In this document: positions 2,983 through 57,718 of the stretch, one piece after another
How the letters are laid out: each line of letters begins with the position of its first letter
Numbering within the stretch: position 1 is the first letter of the stretch
Assembly (NCBI RefSeq): GCF_025602895.1
Contig: NW_026516282.1
Location: 153,724 to 217,723 of the forward strand
Length of the DNA: 64,000 nucleotides
Reading direction: 5' to 3'
From: Polychytrium aggregatum
Taxonomy: Eukaryota; Chytridiomycota; Chytridiomycetes; Polychytriales
Made by a program: the position numbers and the translations under genes
Notes under the pieces: generated by a model
What the model was told of the DNA's origin: nothing
The model's input: the letters and a program-made list of their open reading frames with translations, nothing else
Database searches by the model: none

Positions 2983-3977
2983 TGTTTCTGGCGCCGCCCG
3001 GTCTCTGGCTTGGATCTGACTGGGACTCGCCTCCAGTATGCAATTTTTTGCTTCTTCCCTCCCCGCCCCCAGTCGATCCCTCCCGATTCCGCCTGTTTAG
3101 TACCCGACTCATCCGTCGCCTTCCATTCGGACCTGCTGTGTTGTGCCTCGACACCATGATTTCCTTACGCAAGTCGTTTCTGTCTGTGCCGTGCGCGGCT
3201 GCATTAACGCGGCTGTATCATTCCTCACGAGCCCTCGATGCTCCATTCGCCCTATTTTCTGTGCTTCTTCCCGCCGTTTGTTTGAGTTGTATCTTTGCCA
3301 TTCTCGCGGACTCGCTGTGCAACTCGCGCTTGCTACAAATACCATGCTTCTCGCGCCCTCAACTTGTGCTGTATTTCCTTTGAAGTGTGTTTCTCGGTCA
3401 AGATCGGCCGCTGCTTTGGTACAGGAATGATACCGCTCTTCCGTGGGACTTGGCCAGCGTTGATCAGCGCGGATGCCTGGATGCTTGCAGGGTGGATCGC
3501 AAATCGAGGGTCTCTGTTTGGGCTTGGCAAGGGTGAGGGAGGACTCGGAGAGAGAGGCCCAAGAGAGCGGAGATATGTACACTGGGTCTTGGCCGGCCAC
3601 TTGGTTTCGGGTCTGTTTCGGGTCGCTGGAATCGGCTTTGGGAGCGCCACACGCGCCCTGTGGCACGGCCGTGCCCGTCGCACACAGCCCCAAACTCCGA
3701 CATGGCGCAGCACTCGACACGTGCTCGTGCGCAGTGTCCACGTGTCCGTCACTGGCAATCGCCCGGCACGTGCCCCTTTGCTCCACCGCAGCCGATTGTC
3801 TCAGCCAGACATCCCAGTCTCGAGGCCATGCCCGCGGCCTCGGGCAGATCGCACCCTGCGAGCACGACCACGGCTGCAATAACGGCCACAGCAACGGCAC
3901 CTTCGATGGCGTTGGATGCAAGTCTGCTCCAGCCGCGGCGCCCGAGCGTCTTTGAATCGCTCCTCGCCTATCTGCGG
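2983..3977. other. Spacer and 5' leader before the PPR gene
   Basis: This stretch separates two genes on the same strand. It is pyrimidine-rich in its first 400 bases. The frame of the PPR gene is already open from about 3660, so part of it could be coding if an earlier start (ATG at 3702 or 3828) is used. I see no separate gene in it. Confidence 0.4.
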
Positions 3978-6900
3978 ATGTCTCGGTCGTGCTGCCAGTC
4001 GCACCCTCTGCTGTTCCTGCCGAGACGGCTGCTCTGCATTGCAAGAGTCCCATCGACTGGGGTGCAACGGTTGGCATGTTTGTCGACCCAGCGTCGTGGG
4101 CACTCCAGCGCTACCTCGGACTCAATAGCTCGAGCAGCTCATTCGAACAGTCTCACAAGCGCATCAAATCTGTCGTACCATTCAACACTCACAGCACACC
4201 GTGTGCGATCGATACGCTCGGCATACTCATCGCACCCAACCCTGCCGGCGTATCCGGCATACTCGACCGATTCAGATTCGCCAGCGCCCCGCACGTCTGC
4301 AGAATCGAGCCGCCGAGCTGTTGGGCAACTCGCCGCGATGCGCCAGCCCGAGCAGATTCTTGTCTGCCCATCCCGACCGCCATCTCGTCGACGGAATCGT
4401 CTTATCAGCAACCGATCGCCACGACTTCCACAGACCCGTCTCCGCTTCCCGGAACGCCCGAGGCTAGCCCGGCACCGGGCCAGGACGGCAACACTGCTTC
4501 TAGATCCCCTGCCAGCGCCCGAGCCCAATCTTGTGGACTTGATCCTCTCGACAGTGGATATCAGCGCCATGCCCACACTCTCTGATACGGGCGTCTCTCG
4601 GCCGCGCTCAGCCGTCCCATGCAGTTTATACCCCGTGCCAGGAGCTTCATATGGATGCCTCGAGACACAGCAAGATCGCCCGTTTCCTGACATGCCGGTG
4701 CCTGAATCGCTTCAGCTGCTACAGCTACCCATCAACCTGCCATCACAGCCACTACTCCCAACTGCTCGTCGACCTGGTGGGGCCCGACCAGGCACTAACC
4801 CTGAGCCTGCTAACGACAGCCAAGCCGATACGAATCCGCTAGACCGTCACGCCGCCTCTCCTTGGCACCATCGATCCCCTGAATTGGACTCTCTTCTGCG
4901 CGAGCGCATCGAGGCAGACCCAGCTGCATTCTCCAACCAGTTCAAGGAACTCGTTGCCGCAGGTGACTACCAGAACGCATCAGCAGTCTTTGCGCATTTC
5001 ATCTCGCAAATGACTCGCACCAACCAGGGCGATGCTCTGGAAAAATTAGAGTGCGAAGCAGCGACCTTTTCGTCCCTCGAAGACACGCTCAATGGCAAGG
5101 CTGAGAACACATCCATCGAGCTCCTCCTCACGATCATGGAACATGCTTGCGCCTTGAAGCTCGCTCTGCACGCCCAGCTCGCACGCCGGGCAGTGGAGTT
5201 TACCTGTCGTGCTCAAGCTCTCACTGTTGTTCAGCTCAATGGACTCTTGGGCAGGCTATTTGCCCTCTTTGTGCAAGCTGAAGTCCATATCGACCGAGAA
5301 ACGGGGCTGCAGACGCTTACAACCCTGCTCCGTCGCGGATGGCCCACGGTGGTGACAGCCCTCGATTGCCATCTGGGCAGTCGCCGGGGATACTTTGACT
5401 TGCAGGACCGACACGAACTTGTCAGCGACATGGCACGACACTCCAATCTCGGCACAGCAGTTGGCTTTTTCGAGTTGCTCGCCCGGGATGACCGGTACCG
5501 CTGCATCTATGACCATCCACAGATGCAAAAAACACTGATCAGCATCTTTCGACGCCTGGTGGCCGCTTCGGAAGCAGGGCTGCTGCGCCGGATGTACGCA
5601 CTGGCACGATCAGCCAGCCCAAGTCCGCCTGCTGCTCGGGTCCATGTCTTCCTCGTCACGGAGATTTACAAACGGCATATGGATCCTACCTTTGTGCTGG
5701 CTGACCTCAAGACCATCGCCGACAGCGATGGCGTGATCAACGACAGTGCCATCCTTACCCGTCTCCTGCGCATCGATCCGGCGCTTGCCCTCCAGTTCTT
5801 CAAAGACATGCGGTCGAGCGGCATTCTGCCGTCGAGCGAATCGTACACGGCGCTGATTGTGCACTACACCAGCAACCTCCACCTTGACGAGGAAATCGCA
5901 ATTCGTCTGTTTGAAGACCTCACCGCGACTGTACACACGCTGTCGGTGCAGGTGTACTTTCGGATGTTCAAGCTCATGGTGGTGCTCAGCAAGAGCGAGG
6001 CCGGCACGCACCTTGTGCAGCAGCTGCAGCAAGTCAAGCCCCAGCTGTCCGCCAAGACGTTTGGACTCTTGCTCTCCCTGCACGGCAAGGACCAGAACGT
6101 CGAGATGATCAACTCGCTGATATCAGCGTCCAAGGCACTCCCTGGCAAGCACAGCAGGTCGCTCAACCTGTACTTTGAGATCATCCTGGCGCTGGTGCGC
6201 TGCAACATGATGGAGAGTGCCGAGAAGCAGCTCAACGAAATCGTTGCTCTTGTCGAGTCGGGCGAGGGCATATGGTCGGGCTCGTACCACTACGATGCGA
6301 CCGAGCGGCGGTGGACCTATGTCCCCGTCAAGCACGGACGCATGATCACGGCGATCTCGGATCTGCCGCCCGACCACTTCAACATCATCATCCAGGGCTA
6401 CCTGCAGACGGACCGGCTGGCAGAGGCGCATCGGCTGTTTATGGGGTTCCGAGAGATGGGAATCTCCCCCAACTCGTACACGCTCACCTTCTTTGGCGAG
6501 TACTTTGCGCAGAAGGGACAAATCATCAACCTCAAGCTCATCTTTGAGGAGCTCGACTCGCTCAAGATCCGGCCGACCAACCAGTTCTACTGCTCGATTC
6601 TCTCGCACCTTCTCTCTCTGGAGAACGCCCAGGAATACGATCAGTACGTCGACTGGATCCTGGACCATATGAATCGCGCGGGAATCGAGCCCAACCACTT
6701 TACCTGGAACGTCATCCTGCGGATGTATAGCCGACGGGAGCCTCACCGAGCGTACGAACTGTGGGGGCAGCTTGCAACGCGAGAAGCGGCTCTCCAACCC
6801 CGCAACAGCAGCAGCGATCGTGATCTCGCCACCCGCTCGATACGGGCACCTGCGTCAGCAAGTCCTATTCTGGAAGGCAAGCGGCGCTGGGGCAGCAATC

Positions 6901-7808
6901 TTGCTCCGGACCCTCACAGCGAGCCTGCAGAGACCTCCGAGGCGCTCGAAAAGGGCATCGAGCACCGCCGCAACCGCCGAAAGGAAATCATGGAAGGCCA
7001 GATCCAGTCGGCGTTCAAGGAATGGGGGCGGCCACGCAGAGCCATTGTTTCAAACACCCGGACGACTCAGCTCATGGGCGACCTGTGCTTCCGCCAGGCA
7101 CATCGGGCGCAGGAACTCGGCGATACAAGGCTCTGCGAGCTGTGGATTGCACGCGGCAAGCGGATCCTGGAGCACTCGCTTGGACACGGTCTGGCGCTGA
7201 CGCCTTCGGTGCTCCAGTTCTATGTTCGAAGACTCTGCAGCCTGAACGAGCCCGAGGTGGCGCTGACGACGCTGAGCCAGGTGCTGGACCGCTTGATTCG
7301 GCTTGAAGAAGGGCGGGCTGGCGTCCACGATCTCAGCAAGATCCCCACTGTGCAGACATACGAGCAGTCGATGTTGTGGGACAAGATTCGCCACGACCAA
7401 ACCTGCCAGACAACGGCTGTAGCGACCCTATCGAGCAACACTCTGGCGACGACGACCACGACGACGACAACAACAATGGTAGATGCAGAGCTCATGGTGG
7501 ATCTGGTCGAGAAACTCGCGGAGCAGACTCGGGCCCAGGAGTACCGGCCCACCAAGTCCCAGATCCGATCGGCCACAGACCCGGCGGCAAGGCTGGTGGC
7601 GGATACGCCGAGTACATCAGACTCGCCGAAACGAAATCTGGGGGGTGCTGGTGCTGCTGGGTCGACCACTGGCAAACGAGCGGCTCTGGCGGGACTATAC
7701 GGCCGGCTGAAGCGATTGCATGGGCTGGGCACTGGGATTGTCAGCGAAGAAGCGTTGCTGGTGGTCGAGAGCGCCATCCAATGGCGCCGTGCGGATGATA
7801 AGACATAG
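3978..7808 (+). CDS. Pentatricopeptide repeat (PPR) protein, probably mitochondrial
   Basis: A single long exon encodes about 1276 residues from the ATG at 3978. In-frame ATGs at 3702 and 3828 would give longer products. I prefer 3978 because the next 40 residues are Arg-, Ser- and Leu-rich with no acidic residues, as in a mitochondrial targeting peptide. PPR-type helix pairs are visible, best at 6376-6760, for example FNIIIQGYLQTDRLAEAHRL followed by GISPNSYTLTFFGEYFAQKG and GIEPNHFTWNVILRMYSRRE. PPR proteins bind organellar RNA in a sequence-specific way and act in processing, stability or translation. The C-terminal 300 residues are less regular, with a Thr-rich run near 7446-7475. The exact RNA target cannot be read. 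Family assignment is firm; the start is uncertain. Confidence 0.8.
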   Translation: MSRSCCQSHPLLFLPRRLLCIARVPSTGVQRLACLSTQRRGHSSATSDSIARAAHSNSLTSASNLSYHSTLTAHRVRSIRSAYSSHPTLPAYPAYSTDSDSPAPRTSAESSRRAVGQLAAMRQPEQILVCPSRPPSRRRNRLISNRSPRLPQTRLRFPERPRLARHRARTATLLLDPLPAPEPNLVDLILSTVDISAMPTLSDTGVSRPRSAVPCSLYPVPGASYGCLETQQDRPFPDMPVPESLQLLQLPINLPSQPLLPTARRPGGARPGTNPEPANDSQADTNPLDRHAASPWHHRSPELDSLLRERIEADPAAFSNQFKELVAAGDYQNASAVFAHFISQMTRTNQGDALEKLECEAATFSSLEDTLNGKAENTSIELLLTIMEHACALKLALHAQLARRAVEFTCRAQALTVVQLNGLLGRLFALFVQAEVHIDRETGLQTLTTLLRRGWPTVVTALDCHLGSRRGYFDLQDRHELVSDMARHSNLGTAVGFFELLARDDRYRCIYDHPQMQKTLISIFRRLVAASEAGLLRRMYALARSASPSPPAARVHVFLVTEIYKRHMDPTFVLADLKTIADSDGVINDSAILTRLLRIDPALALQFFKDMRSSGILPSSESYTALIVHYTSNLHLDEEIAIRLFEDLTATVHTLSVQVYFRMFKLMVVLSKSEAGTHLVQQLQQVKPQLSAKTFGLLLSLHGKDQNVEMINSLISASKALPGKHSRSLNLYFEIILALVRCNMMESAEKQLNEIVALVESGEGIWSGSYHYDATERRWTYVPVKHGRMITAISDLPPDHFNIIIQGYLQTDRLAEAHRLFMGFREMGISPNSYTLTFFGEYFAQKGQIINLKLIFEELDSLKIRPTNQFYCSILSHLLSLENAQEYDQYVDWILDHMNRAGIEPNHFTWNVILRMYSRREPHRAYELWGQLATREAALQPRNSSSDRDLATRSIRAPASASPILEGKRRWGSNLAPDPHSEPAETSEALEKGIEHRRNRRKEIMEGQIQSAFKEWGRPRRAIVSNTRTTQLMGDLCFRQAHRAQELGDTRLCELWIARGKRILEHSLGHGLALTPSVLQFYVRRLCSLNEPEVALTTLSQVLDRLIRLEEGRAGVHDLSKIPTVQTYEQSMLWDKIRHDQTCQTTAVATLSSNTLATTTTTTTTTMVDAELMVDLVEKLAEQTRAQEYRPTKSQIRSATDPAARLVADTPSTSDSPKRNLGGAGAAGSTTGKRAALAGLYGRLKRLHGLGTGIVSEEALLVVESAIQWRRADDKT

Positions 7809-49100: not shown

Positions 49101-50215
49101 TGCCGTGTGGCCACATAGCCGAATGCATTGTCAGACATCGAGAGCGGCCGGAGGCCCGCTAAGCTTATCGCTCCAAGGGCAGTGCGTCCATCGCCGACGG
49201 TAGCTCTGCTTGCCAGATCCACGCGGCGCAATCTGCGATGCATTCAAGCCTACATCCGTTCCTGAGTCTTGAGGATTGCCGTCATCTCGTCCCCTTCCAC
49301 AGAGGATATGAGATGGTCGCTCAGGAGCTTGAGGGTATCGGGGCTTTGCTCTTCCAGGGACATAATCGGGCAGCGCAGGTCTTGCGGTGGGGGCAGGCTC
49401 GTGGCGATCGAGAGGATGGAGATGATGGAGAGGATGGAGATGATGGTGCTGATGGAGTTGATGGAGATGATCGGGGTGGAGGCAAGGGTCGGGGCCGCGG
49501 GGCTCAGCCGGTGTTGCAGCCAAGATCTGGGTCTGGGCTGCATCGAGCCGAACGACGCCGCTGACCAAGACAACGCAGCCGCAGCTGCGGGCCATGGCTA
49601 CCATGTCACAGGCGTACCATCGCCGTATCGGCGCATTGCATCGGGAAGCTCATGGTCAATCGTCGCTACTGCTGATCGCCAGCCAACCCGATGCCAGAGG
49701 CAGCCAACTTGGGGCTGGCTGGGTTCTGGCCGGCTAGAGCAGGGCCAGCCACGTCGTTGCCGGGAGCGATGGCCGCGAAATGAATTGATTTGCGCCAGCC
49801 AATGGACGCGCGGCTGTCCGAATGCTGCGCAAACATTGTTGCTGAGAAGCAGTTGCTGCGCATGTCGGTGCACAGAACACAGACGCACAGAACACGCACC
49901 ACACACACACGCCGCGCTGATCTTCGAGTCCGGCCGTTTCGGTTTCTGCTCTCTTCCTTGCATCCATCGGCCGGTGTCATCTCGTCTGTTCCGTGGGTAC
50001 GTTTGCCCTGCTCTGTGCTGCTGTGTGCTGCGATTGCGCCCGGTGTCTCGTGCCAGACCCCGCCACCGCCACCAAAGTCAGCCGCCGCGCTTGCTGTGTC
50101 GCCCCTGGCCTCGTCCGCGGCGGCCTCTGCCTGCAATCCGTCTCACGGCTCCGAATTGCTTCCCTTCTCCACCGAATCGTCCAGCGCTCGTCCTTGGATT
50201 TCGATTGGCTTGATC
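49101..50215. promoter_or_regulatory. Divergent region between KxDL gene and nucleoporin
   Basis: This 1.1 kb lies between divergent starts. A GATGGAGATGAT-like repeat lies around 49411-49470. Open frames on both strands show no motifs. Both promoters should be within it. Confidence 0.4.
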
Positions 50216-53200
50216 ATGGCCGACATCGGCACGCTGTTTTCGCTCGGCACGCCCGCCATTCTTGCGGCTACGGCCGCGGTTGGTGCTGTCAGTGCCGCCG
50301 TGTACGGATGGACGACCATGCAAAAAGCAAAGGCCCGAAAGGAGTATCTCAGCATGGTGTCAGTTTGCAATCCGCATCGCTTTTGCGTTTTTCGATTCCC
50401 AGCTATTTTCGCTCTTTGTCTCGCATATCGCCACTGATTCAGCTGATCGATACTCTGTGATGCATGCATTTCTGCGCTGTTGAAGCCGTTCCGCGGTACT
50501 GATCGATCACTGATGTGATGGTTTGCATTTCTGGCCCACAGATCTCGTCGGAAAGCCGATCGCTATGGCGTTGTTCAGCAGCAGAGCTCGGCACGCAACG
50601 GTAGGGCGCTCTGCTGGGCCCAGCGACTTTGTGCAATTTCTCCGAGAGCAACACAGCACGATACGGACCCAGCAAAAAATCGCCGAGGTCGATTCTTTGC
50701 AATGGGCGCCTTGATCTCTCTCTCTTGCTCCGTCGCTGACACTGTTCACCCGCGCCGCTCGGCTGCTTGGTCGATCGCTCGCTGACTCGGCCGTCAACGC
50801 TTCTCGATTCCCCCAAACACCCCCAGGTGTCAGTCGGTCCTCGCGAACCAGTCGTCAGCCTCCGCTGGATTTCATCAACGAGGGCAACTCATCCTTCCGA
50901 TTCCGACACGGCGTTGACGACGGGCGAACCACCAAACTTCAGCCCAACCCGCCCCCGAACCAGCCTGTTGATTCTCAATACAAACCACAGGTCGCCCGCC
51001 CCAACCCGAAAGTGGAATACCGAGACCGTAAATATCGCAGTGCTTGGATGGATCTCGTGTCGGCAGAGCACCCGGATCCCCAGCGTCCTCACATTTGTGG
51101 ATCCTCTACCCCTGTCGATCCCTAGGCATCCGATATCCGGCAGAGCCCGCGGAACAGCAGCCTGAGCCCCGTCATACGCTGCGTCCAGCGGATCGACACC
51201 CCGGCAACGACAACGAACAATCCCCCTTCAGCAAACGCCGCATCCTCCTGGAAGACGAGGTACGCTGGCGTTCGGCCCGGAGCCTACATATCCAATCTCC
51301 AATTGCACAGGGCACGAAGACGACGCTGTTTGTGGTGTCGACGAGCAGCCCTGGGCACCAGGCTCGCATTCAACGTCCCTTTCCTACACTGACATTCGTC
51401 TTCTGACCCAAACTGCTCCTTGCAACCCATCATGTAGGATGACCCTGGATACATTTTCATCGACGGCGAGCGAGTGCCAATGACCGCCATTAACCGCATC
51501 GACTACAGCCTCCCCTTCCCTGCCACAAAACGACAGAGGCGCGCCGATGATCTTGATGATATGAGGGTCCACGTCGATATGAAGCCTCGGGAGGCTCCTT
51601 TGGTGGGTGCCGTGAGCCAGCCTGTCATATTACCCGTCGAGGCTGCTTCCATTGATCGTTTTGGATGTATCGCATCGCCCAGCACCGAAAACCGCTGGCT
51701 TGACGTATTGTGCCAAATGTCTTTGCCGAATCGCTCATCCGCCTCACTCTCCGCAGACCATCTCCAAACCTCAGCGCGAGTATGTTCCTCAGGCTGCGAC
51801 ATCGGCCCCGGCTCCAAAGGCAGAGGCTGAGACGGAGCGGCCCATTCCAAACCTGCCCCGCCATCTCTCGCGGCCTTCCGAACAGCCGCGCGTTCGAGTC
51901 TCAGTCACTCGCGAATATGTTGGTTCGCCCCTCGCCAAGTCAGTCATGGTCAAGCGCGACTTTTACAGTGACGAGGAGGAAGAAGAGGAGGAGCGTGAAG
52001 GCGATGTCCAGAGCGAGCTGTTTGCCAACCCCGCAGAGTTCAGAGCCACCCCAGAGACTCGTCCTCAGCTCCAACGAGGCTCCAGCAACGATGCTAGGAT
52101 GCCATCTGTCCCGCCCGTGCGCTCGGCGCAGAAACCTGGCGATCTACGCAAGCGCTTCATGATCGAAGATGATGAGGAGAATGACGAGAACACACGAAAT
52201 GTAAGTGCTTTCCCTTGGTGCTGCTCGTTGACGGAGCAATGTCTGGCTTTTGACCCACCCAACACGATTTCCACCAGGGCACGCCCATCAAGCGCCGCAA
52301 TGTCGACCGCTCTGCGTTGGTGTCCAAAACTCCACTCCGTGTTGTCTCGCAGACACCTATGAAGACAAAGATCTCGTCCTCGCCCGCCAGCGGCCGTCTG
52401 AAGCTGCGACCCAGCACGCCGAAAGCCTCGACCAGCAGCCCCAGTGTCCCCAAGCAGTCGGCCCTGAAGCGGCTTCTGACCGACGATGAGACCAACCGCA
52501 TTCTTGCCAAGGCCCTGGAAATTGCTGCTGCCAACACAAGCGAGACTGGCGAGAGCCGACGCGAAGTCCGGCTTGATCTGGAGGGCATCAAGCGGTCTGA
52601 GCAGGTGCCCGAGAAGATCAGGCACAAAGTTACGTTTGCGTTTGGCGAGGAGTCGACACCGTCCCCCGAGACTCTTTCGGCGGCCACGGCAACTCCTCTG
52701 TCGACTCAGGGCGAGCTTCAGTCCGCCGCTTCCTCATCCGCCGCCACAACACCCGCATTTTCATTTGGCCTTCCGAGCGACAAGCCTGAGAGCGTCAAAG
52801 CTGCGGAGGAGCCTCCGAAGCCAAGCTTGTTTGCAGCCCCACCTCTGTCAAAGCCTGATGACAAGGCTCTGACCTCTCCCGGTAGCATCTTTGCTGCTCC
52901 CACTACCTCGTCCCCAGCCACATCCTCTGTGTCATTGGCTGTAGCCGAAAAGCTGAAGGATAGTGCGCCGGTGTCCTTCAACTTCAACGCGACCACATCG
53001 GCTGGGACGACTTCTGCATTTGGCAGCAACGAGCCGTCAAAACCCTTCGCCTTTGGCACGACCACAACCACAGAATCCGCCATAGCTTTCTCAAGTGCCG
53101 CTGAGCCTCCCAAGAAACCCGAAGAGCCCAAAGCCACCGGCTTCTCGTTTGCGGGGATTTCCTCGACACCAGATCCCAAGCCGGCAATCTCGATTCCAAC

Positions 53201-55076
53201 CATCAGCTTCACGCCCCCGCCAGCAGCGTCGTCGGTGCCAGCGGAGAAGCCCAAGACCCCCGAGACTGCCGTCCCGACTTCAGGATTCTCATTTTTCACC
53301 ACACCAAGCACGACCACAGCTTCGAACAGCATTCCGGCGAGTATCCCGGCCGCTGCCAGCGCGAGTACGCCAACCCCTTCGTTGTTTGGGTCATTTGCTC
53401 CCCCAGCGACCACTTTGGTCCCCGTTGACTCGACCCCCGCCTCAGTTGCAAGCACTGCAGCCACCCTCCCTGCGGCTACCGCAGTGCCTGCCCAGGGAGC
53501 CTCTATCGCTCCGACTGCAGTGCCTGCGCCTGTTGTGCCATTGCCTACTGCGTCAACTACACCATCCGCTGCGGGCGCGGGCCTCCCAGCGATCGCACAG
53601 TCCTTCGGGTTCACCAAACCCTTCGAGTCTAGTGCGAGCGGCCCAGGCGCTACCCCCACTGCTACTACCCCCGCTGCCTTCGCTACTACCATCACTACCA
53701 CTGCCGCTGCGGCAGCGTCAGCGGCTCCGGCGCCTTTGAGCTTTGCTTTCGGATCAGGATCTCCTGCCCCAGGTGCATTCAGCTTTGGAGCTGGCCCAAC
53801 AGCGACTTTGGCGTCGACAACAGCGCCTCCTCCGACCTCGCTTTTTGGCGCGGTGACACCTGCACCGACCTTTGGTGCAAGTACCAGCGCCCCAATCATG
53901 TTTGGATCCACTGCCTCGACCGGCTTTGGCTCATCGACGACACCGGCAGCACCTACTGCTCCTGCGGCTTCTGCGCCAGCGATTCCTGCATTTGGATCAA
54001 CTCCTGCAGCAACCTCGGCCCCTCCTGCATCAAGCTTTTCCTTTGGTGGCACTGCCTCATCTGCTAGCAACTTTACGTTTGGATCCAGCGTGCCTGCGGC
54101 GACCGCGGCCCCGGCTTCAGCACCATCCTTTGCTCTCGGAGCTCCCATGTCCACTGGAGCTGCTGCCGCCCCGGCCCAGACACAACCGACCGGCTTTGGC
54201 AGTGTCGGCTCGGCTCCAACTGGTGCCAGCAACCCTCCAGGCGGATTTTCGTTTGGTGGGGCCGGCGGTGCCATGGCATCCTCCACCCCCGTCACTCCCG
54301 CTGCCAACTCGAGCTTTACATTTGGAGCAGATTCCTCGAGCATGAACACCTCTCCGGCCACGTCCTTTGGATTTGGAAGCCAGCCGTTGGCCTCCGCAGC
54401 TGCTCCAGCTACTGGATTCGGCTCCTTCGGCAGCCAGCCTACAGGCAACACCGGCTTTGGTTCGTTTGGGTCCTCAAACACCTCGGCCGCGCCTGCCCCG
54501 GCATTCGGCGCCGCTAATCTTTTCGGGAGCGCAAACAATGGCGCCGCAGCCAACAGCATGGATGCTACTCCAAGCGCTGCTCCGGCCTTTGGCGGCGCTC
54601 CTGGTGGTGCTCCTGGCGGTGCCCAGCCCTTTTCCTTTGGCTTCGGCTCGTCTGCGCCAGCATCGGCTCCTGGCGTCTTTGGTGCTCAGGCTGCACCAGC
54701 TGCACCAGCTGCACCAGCTCCGGCGGCTGTGGCTCCAGCTTCAGTGTTTGGCGCTACCGCACCCCCCGGCTCTGGTTTCCAGTTCGGACAAGCTGCCACC
54801 GCGACATCAAACTTTACTTTTGGTGCCCCTGCCAACCCAGCCCCGGCCTTTGGTGCGACCGACAGCTCAATGGGACAGCCGGCCAGCAACGCCTTCTCCT
54901 TTGGGGCGACCACACAAGCCTCTCAGCCTCTTGCGTTCGGATTGCCTCCGATGGGCGGAGGAGCTGCCCCGCCTGCGGTCGTCAACAATCCGTTCTCGGC
55001 CGGCCCGAACATGTCGCAGGGTGGCCGCAAGGTCGCTCCCGCCAAATCCAAGCTTGCGAATCGAGGTCGACGTTGA
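50216..55076 (+). CDS. Transmembrane FG nucleoporin, POM121-like
   Basis: Seven exons, 50216-50358, 50542-50600, 50827-51027, 51126-51259, 51438-51611, 51757-52200 and 52278-55076, give about 1317 residues. Residues about 10-31 form a hydrophobic segment (TPAILAATAAVGAVSAAVYG), followed by a basic stretch. The middle has RRILLEDEDDPGYIFIDGER, basic clusters (KRQRR) and an acidic run. From residue about 500 to the end there are FG repeats of FxFG and GFGS type in a Ala/Pro/Thr-rich matrix, and the chain ends in a basic motif (KLANRGRR). This order, a single N-terminal membrane helix, NLS-rich middle and C-terminal FG region, is that of vertebrate POM121, which anchors the nuclear pore to the membrane. 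Yeast Nup1 has FG repeats and a basic tail but no membrane helix. The nucleoporin call is firm; POM121 orthology is inference. Confidence 0.82.
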
Positions 55077-56074
55077 GTCGACCGGAGATCCGGTTCGGAG
55101 GTCTTCTCCGAGGCCAACAACTCTCCCTTGGTGTGCCGAATCGTGGTCGTTCTTGGACTCGCCCGTGGGAATGGAGTGGAGGGCGGACTCGACGATGAAT
55201 TCTAGGGAGGCTGCATTTTTCAGGAGGCACATGTGTTTCGATTTGTTGCACCTACAATACAGTATTGATGCGACATCACGAGGGGACTGCGCAGGTCGAT
55301 CATGCTGCGCACCACACTCGAGCCGCTGATCGGTGGCTCGATCCGCCAGGCTGCGCCACGGCGTCGGCGCCAACAAAACCGCCTCCGTCCCGCGCTCGCT
55401 CTTTGGCAGCTCGAGTTTTCTTCGAGCATCTTGTCAAATTGCCGGCATCTGGGCCCACGCTTCCATCCCATGCCGGTGCTGATGATGCTCAAGAGCGAGA
55501 CGGGGAGGCTCTGGGACACCCAACCCCCCGTCGGCCTTTCTAGGAGCGCCTGCGACAATGGCTTCTTGAGTCCCGTCGCAAGACTTGGCTCGATCGCAAG
55601 CCCGCTCTCAAGAGGAGACAGCCCCGTTGCATCATTCTTGCCCGGACTCAGACCTGGGCACGGGGGCCACTGCTGATGGGCGGTGTGGAGTCAGTGGATG
55701 TGGGATGGCGAGAGGGAGGTCAACGGACAGGGGCAGCTGGAGCCATCCGATGGCTGCTCTGATGATGCACTGGCGCCTCAGCATCGCCAGCATCACCAGC
55801 ATCACCAGCATCGCCAGCATCGCCAGCATCTCGCTGAGTATTGATCGGCAATCCGATCACCCGCTCCACCCGGTATGCACATGTTCGCATTCGTTGGCTG
55901 GGCGTCGGCGAAATGCCGCCACCGTTTCTCCGCCGCTGGTGGCGGAACAATGTTGCGGGCACATGCAGATTGCTCTCTTCGTCTCCCCAACTCCCGCCCA
56001 TATATTCAGCGCTTTTGCACCCACTTCCCCAGCGCTGCTGTTCTACCGCCCTTCCGCATCCTTCCTGGCCATCC
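55077..56074. other. Spacer between nucleoporin and elongase
   Basis: About 1 kb between two plus-strand genes. It contains a 9-base repeat near 55780-55832. Overlapping open frames have no motifs. The elongase promoter should be near its right end. Confidence 0.4.
55780..55832 (+). repeat. 9-base tandem repeat (GCATCGCCA-like)
   Basis: About six imperfect copies of GCATCRCCA in tandem, upstream of the elongase gene. Confidence 0.88.
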
Positions 56075-57718
56075 ATGAATCTTGAGACCTTCCAGTTTGT
56101 CGCGGGCCAGACGCCCCTGACCGATCTCCGGGTATGTCCACGACCATCCGCCGCCTGGCCATCGCCTCGAGGCTGGCCGAGTCTTTCAATTGCCGTGGCC
56201 CTGGACCAAGCCCGCCACGTATCGCCGTGGATATGCACAGCTTTCATCATGGAATCGACCATCCAACCCCTTATCGCTCTTCGGCCTCTATCACATCGCG
56301 CGTCCAGGTCATCGGAGCAACTTGGGCAATCTATGCCACCACCATCCTTGGACTCAGGGTATGTGTCGGCCGGGATGGCAGTGGTTGTCCTGGTGCTGTC
56401 GAGCACATTGTGTCCGATACACAGGGATTGCTCCCGGGGTGTGCTGGAGTCGTCGATCAGCAGGCAGAACCCATCCCTATACGATGGCTTCTCGGCCTCA
56501 AGCTCGTGTCGAGCCACCTGCTCAGGGCCCGGACTCACCCGCTGTCTCTCCTGCTGCCCCCAGCAATACATGAAGAACCGAGAGCCCTTCAAGCTCGTCA
56601 ACGCTACTGCCATCCACAACATGATCCTGTGCATCTGGAGTCTGATCATGGCCGTTGGTGTGTCCTATTCGGTCTATCAAGTCGGCCAAGTCGAGTTCCG
56701 CGCCATGTTCTGCACTCTCCCCAGCCACTCCGCGGCCAGGGGCTCTCTGTGGTTCTGGATCTACGTCTATTACATCAGCAAGTTTTACGAACTGCTGGAT
56801 ACGGTGATCCTGGTTCTGAAGAAGGTACGCAGTACACTGTGTGGGTGGGTGGATCCGAGACCAGGATGTCCGCGAGCAGCAGCACCACGGCCTTGCTCCT
56901 GCATTGGCCAACGTTGATTCTCATACACCATCGCTCCCACCAGAAACCCATCATATTCCTCCACTGGTTCCACCACGGCATCGTTGTCCTAATGGTCTGG
57001 ATCTGGATGTATGACATTGCTGTCGTCACAACGTAAGTGCCAGATTTCCTCGCCGGGTCGCTCCGAAGCCTCGCTTCGGCATCGATGCCTGAGGCCGACC
57101 CAAAGAACCGTGGAGCCGCATGTGAACCCAGCTCTGTGACTCATTCGTCTCATCCGCACAACCTCCCTCCAGCTGGGGCATGATCTTCAATACCGTCGTG
57201 CACGTTTTCATGTACTACTACTACTATGCGGCCTCGTTGGGCAAGTCGGTCTGGTTCAAGGTTTGTACTTTGGGTGTCTGTTGGACGTGCTTCCGGCTGC
57301 TTGCCTGTCAAGCGGGAGGTGCATCGGGCCTGCCAAATAGTCGGTGGGGGTTGTGGATGCTGGTTGGCCAGCATAATGGCCCCTGCCACAGTACGTCTCC
57401 TAACATGCCCTTCGACATTCCTTGGCTTGTAACATGTGGATCTTCGTCGCTTTCCCGCAACGTGTCCCCTGTGCGCCTGTTTCGCAGAAGTACATCACTT
57501 CCGGCCAGATCGTCCAGTTTGTCTGCTCGTTCTTTTTCACTGTGGTCTTTGCCTACTACCACTTGAAGATCAAGAGCACCGGCGGACCCGGGTGCCAGGG
57601 CGTTTCGGCCGCCATCTTCACCACCGGCCTGAACTTCATCTTCCTTGTGCTGTTCATCCAATTCTATCGGTCATCGTATGGCAAGAAGAAGGGGGCCGAC
57701 AAGCCCAAGAAACAATAG
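56075..57718 (+). CDS. ELO-family fatty-acid elongase
   Basis: Six exons, 56075-56131, 56308-56358, 56564-56824, 56944-57032, 57173-57260 and 57488-57718, give about 258 residues. The second exon is only 51 bases; with exon 1 it forms FVAGQTPLTDLR joined to VIGATWAIYATTILGLR, and exon 3 continues with QYMKNREPFKLVNATAIHN. The catalytic histidine box HWFHH is in exon 4, after FYELLDTVILVLKK. YYYYYAASLGKSVWFK and KYITSGQIVQFVCSFFFTVV are also standard. The chain ends with KKKGADKPKKQ, an ER retention type tail. ELO enzymes do the first condensation of very-long-chain fatty-acid synthesis in the ER membrane. Chain-length preference is not deducible. Family is firm. Confidence 0.92.

Follow-up and report, generated by a model that had tools for sequence, protein, structure and literature searches.

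A possible membrane-tethered FG nucleoporin with a POM121-like layout in the chytrid fungus Polychytrium aggregatum

Introduction

Can a fungus carry a nucleoporin that is held in the nuclear envelope in the manner of POM121? The question is raised by a gene in a stretch of 64,000 nucleotides of the chytrid Polychytrium aggregatum (contig NW_026516282.1, positions 153,724 to 217,723, forward strand), which is called the window in the following. It lies on contig C398 of the analyzed assembly (64.7 Mb, 418 contigs). The gene is located at window positions 50216-55076 (plus strand) and encodes a protein with an N-terminal hydrophobic segment, a basic middle and a long region rich in phenylalanine-glycine (FG) repeats. 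The initial annotation, made from the sequence alone, had interpreted it as a POM121-type membrane nucleoporin. With a probability of about 0.55, the product is seen here as a putative membrane-tethered FG nucleoporin with a single N-terminal signal-anchor helix and a POM121-like layout. This layout was recovered, whereas kinship with POM121 was not shown.

The published surveys, cited here from excerpts, conflict on the distribution of POM121. Pom121 is described there as found only in vertebrates (PMC2951903) or as reported only in chordates (PMC6371224), whereas other excerpts treat POM121 as a candidate for an origin in the last eukaryotic common ancestor (PMC8421043, citing its references 20 and 36) or as more widely conserved (PMC8700311). 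Furthermore, POM121 and Pom34 are stated not to be homologous (PMC13242641), and Pom152, Mug31 and Nup60 are listed as fungus-specific models (PMC10034585). Among the titles and abstract beginnings listed from the open-licence literature, none was seen to treat a fungal protein resembling POM121.

Gene structure and coding evidence

The gene borders of the initial annotation proved exact. The gene starts with an ATG at 50216, ends with a stop codon at 55074-55076 and consists of seven exons, which are joined by six GT-AG introns to an uninterrupted frame of 1303 residues. Its parts and one alternative N-terminal extension are as follows; the modules starting with lysine-arginine (KR) are described further below.

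50216-50343, plus strand: exon 1, which covers codons 1-42 plus two bases of codon 43, an open frame ending at a GT donor
50255-50320, plus strand: hydrophobic residues 14-35 in exon 1, found by their membrane-helix score and followed by a Lys/Arg-rich part
50542-50600, plus strand: exon 2, basic stretch 3′ of the hydrophobic segment, frame kept across GT-AG borders, weak codon score (+0.06 per codon)
50827-51027, plus strand: exon 3, GT-AG borders, codon score +0.15 per codon
51144-51259, plus strand: exon 4, start of the first KR module (KRRILLEDE, from 51233); a second frame also scores +0.16
51438-51602, plus strand: exon 5, DDPGYIFIDGER from 51438 as the block compared with POM121, and KRQRR at 51528-51542 as a possible second basic cluster
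51757-52200, plus strand: exon 6, KR modules two and three (KRDFYSDEEEEEEE from 51952, KRFMIEDDEE from 52150)
52278-55076, plus strand: exon 7, KRR at 52290-52298 and the fourth module KRLLTDDE from 52467
about 52632-54989, plus strand: FG region in exon 7, followed by the basic tail (about 55008-55073) and the stop codon (55074-55076)
49862-50215, plus strand: possible alternative in-frame N-terminal extension of 118 amino acids, with an in-frame ATG at 49862

The model used to score codon usage was derived from 11 long frames in other parts of the window, which are uncurated and some of which are possibly spurious. Exon 1 reaches +0.20 per codon in frame (42 codons), the highest value of all seven exons, while its other two frames score -0.19 and -0.17 and reading through its donor gives -0.22 per codon over 31 codons. 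The start codon at 50216 has an A at position -3 and a G at position +4, and between 49862 and 50216 there is no ATG in any frame. If exon 1 is removed from the model, the first methionine appears only at residue 183. Exon 1 looks coding, as supported by codon usage, the ATG context and the lack of a nearer upstream ATG.

A branch site resembling CTGAC, CTGAT or TTGAC was found within 50 bases of the acceptor in introns 1, 2, 4 and 6 and at -57 in intron 5, and no CTGAC/CTGAT-like site was found in intron 3, which follows exon 3. A first exon that ends at 50356 (donor GTGTCA) or at 50357 in place of 50343 was rejected, since the downstream frame is then broken by 28 and 16 stops, respectively. 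The open leader at 49784-50215 has a weak codon score of +0.03 per codon, and an extension from 49862 would add a further hydrophobic stretch with an apparent insertion energy (dG) of +1.48. The region 49862-50215 is more likely a 5′ leader than a coding extension.

FG region and basic tail

The protein contains 36 FG dipeptides, among them 15 in FxFG motifs and none in GLFG motifs. All but one of the 36 are found within residues 500-1275, where only 38 of the 776 residues are charged. The tail (residues 1276-1303) comprises seven lysines or arginines and neither aspartate nor glutamate. The long FG region and the basic tail, as initially annotated, are thus present, and with its numerous FG repeats in a segment of low charge the protein shows what characterizes FG nucleoporins. 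A C-terminal FG region is also what is found in POM121.

N-terminal hydrophobic segment

Apparent insertion energies were calculated with the same set of parameters for the protein and for the reference helices. Residues 14-35 show the lowest apparent dG of the whole protein with +1.25 kcal/mol, followed by +3.05 for the next best segment elsewhere; the references gave -1.0 for glycophorin A, -2.4 for EGFR and +0.3 for a helix of 3 Leu and 16 Ala. The Kyte-Doolittle maximum of the segment is 1.75 over 19 residues. Its hydrophobic moment is low (0.10-0.20 in 18-residue windows starting at residues 1-25), and it is therefore not an amphipathic surface helix of the kind found at the N-terminus of Nup1. 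Residues 33-63 carry a net charge of +7 and residues 1-10 one of -1, and this asymmetry favors an N-out/C-in orientation. A weak membrane anchor at about residues 14-35 is probable.

Basic modules and candidate import signals

The basic middle contains four modules of the type KR-x-hydrophobic-x-acidic, which are KRRILLEDEDD (residue 160), KRDFYSDEEEEEEE (289), KRFMIEDDEE (355) and KRLLTDDE (435). Four patterns were tried for their description, all of them written post hoc after the copies had been seen, so that the counts do not control for the choice of pattern. In windowed shuffles, the observed number of modules was reached in 0 of 1000 cases for each pattern (means 0.139, 0.005, 0.0 and 0.001). 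In the stop-free stretches of the window, which comprise 86,725 residues, the pattern with a mean of 0.005 has only four matches, and these are the four modules of this gene.

Judged by eye, bipartite-like signals are found at residues 355-378 and 160-203, with a KRR 19 residues after the third module and the KRQRR after the first one. These arrangements, KR..acidic..KRR and KRR..KRQRR, look like candidate bipartite import signals. The start of the POM121 nuclear localization signal (NLS) fits the same pattern by eye, both in the human form (KRIVEEED) and in the PDB entry 4yi0 (KRTVAEED). According to the excerpt of PMC4695851, the NLS of rat Pom121, for which a structure is mentioned there, folds on its transport factor like the NLS of Heh2, which imports membrane proteins. 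Signals of this kind are proposed there to bring Heh2, and POM121 by analogy with it, to the inner nuclear membrane.

Comparison with POM121

The Pfam library was searched by hmmscan with eight queries derived from the window, namely residues 1-420 and five further fragments (E-values up to 10) as well as the FG exon and exon 6 (up to 1), where the HMMER filters remove most matches above about E 0.1. The POM121 model PF15229, which spans the part of POM121 around the NLS and beyond it, matched none of the eight. A fragment of human POM121, used as positive control, scored 123.3 bits over PF15229 positions 5-81, and the library can therefore detect POM121. By this one defining sequence test, membership in the POM121 family is not indicated. 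The lack of a match beyond the FG repeats, which the initial annotation had named as an outcome that would refute its interpretation, holds at the Pfam level.

The initial annotation had also described a block like the EEEDQIFLDG region of POM121. Such a block exists at residues 159-181 (SKRRILLEDEDDPGYIFIDGERV, of the form KR..EDED..IFIDG). The human fragment also matches PDB chain 4yi0_A, a POM 121 chain of 30 residues with KRTVAEEDQLHLDGQENKRRRHDSS at positions 6-30, which we take to be the POM121 NLS on importin alpha. On this assumption, the counterpart of the compared block in POM121 is the linker that joins the two basic clusters of its bipartite NLS. The IFLDG position reads LHLDG in the 4yi0 peptide, and the IF would not be constant among POM121 proteins if the human letters used here are right.

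Three human queries and the 4yi0 peptide taken from the PDB were aligned with the protein, each with 2000 shuffles per null; the first count refers to global composition shuffles and the second to local ones. The human 25-mer scored 34 against residues 1-500, which was reached by 39 and 74 shuffles at a gap penalty of -11 and by 13 and 9 at -7, and the score of its 22-mer core was reached by 23 and 53. Against kinship with POM121, the 4yi0 peptide scored 31, reached by 136 and 221 shuffles (77 and 111 at -7), and found its best place at residues 355-383 instead of 159-181. The fragment of 78 residues scored 41, reached by 151 and 178 shuffles, and was likewise placed elsewhere (residues 400-446). 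Thus, the human letters give a weak signal and the PDB peptide gives none, the similarity of the block being near chance in the latter case, and homology to POM121 is not established by these comparisons.

The likeness to POM121 consists in a single N-terminal hydrophobic segment, a basic middle of import type, the FG region and a basic C-terminus. POM121 itself is located in the pore membrane and binds Nup155 and Nup160. The differences are the missing PF15229 match, the near-chance similarity of the NLS linker to the PDB peptide and the marginal helix of the protein described here.

Proposed function and alternative explanations

As to membrane insertion, topology, import route and location of the protein, we infer the following. 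Residues 14-35 or so would act as a signal anchor in the nuclear envelope with the short end in the lumen, and the positively charged remainder would face the pore or the nucleoplasm. This is favored by the position of the best hydrophobic segment at the very N-terminus and by the charge distribution around it. The basic signals of importin-alpha type in the middle may direct the protein to the inner nuclear membrane by the route proposed for POM121 and yeast Heh2. Its long FxFG region would extend into the channel, where it would bind transport receptors. The protein would work like POM121, either by shared descent or as a protein of Nup1/Nup153 type or of this lineage only. Heh1 and Heh2 are not known to have an FG region. 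The import signal of these yeast proteins is comparable in that a membrane protein carries a basic NLS and a disordered linker, whereas Heh2 has LEM and MAN domains (PMC4695851, excerpt).

Several results weigh against a membrane-tethered nucleoporin. The apparent dG of the N-terminal segment is marginal and is reached by 49 of the 964 ATG-led stretches of 43 codons in the window, exon 1 included, so that the helix of the initial annotation holds as a hydrophobic, non-amphipathic segment but is weaker than claimed. Moreover, the true start could be the ATG at 49862. The Pfam queries taken together cover the whole protein, and none of the nucleoporin models matched it anywhere. Searches of a PDB set with phmmer, which covered residues 1-500 and the last 258, gave no match for residues 1-500 or for the last 62 residues at E-values up to 10, and nothing for the last 258 residues up to 0.01; the block compared with POM121 alone matched only a lipoprotein (E 1.6). 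The name nucleoporin is therefore based on the FG content and the layout of the protein. No orthologue was seen, the own genome being the only eukaryotic collection that was searched.

The marginal energy and its frequency in the window agree with a soluble FG protein, whose Ala/Gly-rich N-terminus would form no membrane helix or whose exon 1 would be joined wrongly. The short exon 2 with its weak codon score also speaks for it. The clear codon signal of exon 1 and the lack of any methionine before residue 183 in a model without it argue the other way, and this explanation seems rather unlikely, although it has to be taken seriously. A nucleoporin of Nup1/Nup153 type or of this lineage only, whose POM121 layout is convergent, is quite possible, though short of an even chance, and would be a form of the membrane-tethered nucleoporin if the helix is real. 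It is suggested by the FxFG motifs without GLFG and by the basic C-terminal end; an FxFG region and a basic end are also features of yeast Nup1 and metazoan Nup153. The tail (GGRKV..RGRR) presumably resembles the ends of these two proteins, a likeness that no match supports. Nup1, Nup60 and Nup153 touch the membrane N-terminally by amphipathic helices (PMC8700311, excerpt), whereas the segment found here is hydrophobic and not amphipathic. Full-length yeast Nup1 is part of the PDB set (5owu_B), and no similarity to it was detected for residues 1-500 and the last 62. Pfam cannot decide on a Nup1-like N-terminus, since the Nup1 N-terminus itself has no Pfam match. Convergence may also hold for the ciliate protein TtPom121 of Tetrahymena, which was named from its expression profile, its layout and its location and has an N-terminal transmembrane segment, C-terminal FG repeats and a size of 129 kDa (PMC5450191, excerpt); it is likened here by the description of its layout only.

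A true POM121 orthologue, of opisthokont or older origin and lost, or deprived of its helix, in yeasts, would be another form of the membrane-tethered nucleoporin. The same order of parts, the weak resemblance of the block to the human NLS, the fit of the POM121 NLS to the module pattern and the surveys which grant POM121 an early origin or wider conservation point to it. On the other side stand the eight queries unmatched by PF15229, the LH in place of IF in the PDB peptide, the shuffle scores and displaced best sites of this peptide and of the 78-residue fragment, and the surveys restricting Pom121 to chordates or vertebrates. Such orthology is improbable. More speculative still, and likewise improbable, is the idea that POM121 is an ancient opisthokont nucleoporin, kept here in its original form with the helix and with import signals multiplied to four modules, and that the Nup1-type proteins of yeasts are its helix-less descendants.

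Second copy, further loci and neighboring genes

A near-identical second copy is located on another contig (C246:211800-218500, compared with window positions 49451-56150) and represents a haplotype or a duplicate. Its exons are identical except for an in-frame insertion or deletion of 9 nucleotides at 54690-54698 in the FG region of exon 7, and the copy is therefore uninformative on selection on exon 1. Further differences are one single-nucleotide polymorphism in intron 2 (50689), four such polymorphisms outside the gene and a length difference of 18 nucleotides near 55805 in an AGCATC-type repeat.

A search of the own genome with PF15229 gave two matches, C35:734847-734981 and C382:61251-61385, neither of which is this gene. 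With 25 bits they are below the cut-off of 27 bits, each contains one internal TGA, and both are probably due to chance. Pfam matches of fragments of the protein to Skp1 (E 6.8, 4.3 and 0.72), CytochromB561_N (1) and McrBC (0.19) were set aside as chance-level, as was LapA_dom, a bacterial membrane domain, at residues 13-47 (0.28). In a pattern scan of bacterial and archaeal genomes, none of the 261 pattern matches was a relative.

Downstream of the gene, a frame at 55838-56914 (plus strand) matches a fatty-acid elongase (ELO, PF01151, 2.1e-20). In another part of the window, pentatricopeptide repeats (PPR_2, 8.3e-18) were recognized in a long frame at 3537-7805 (plus strand).

Significance for POM121 and fungal nucleoporins

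If the helix is confirmed, a fungal FG nucleoporin with a membrane anchor would add another example that speaks either for a deep ancestry of this layout or for its repeated invention.

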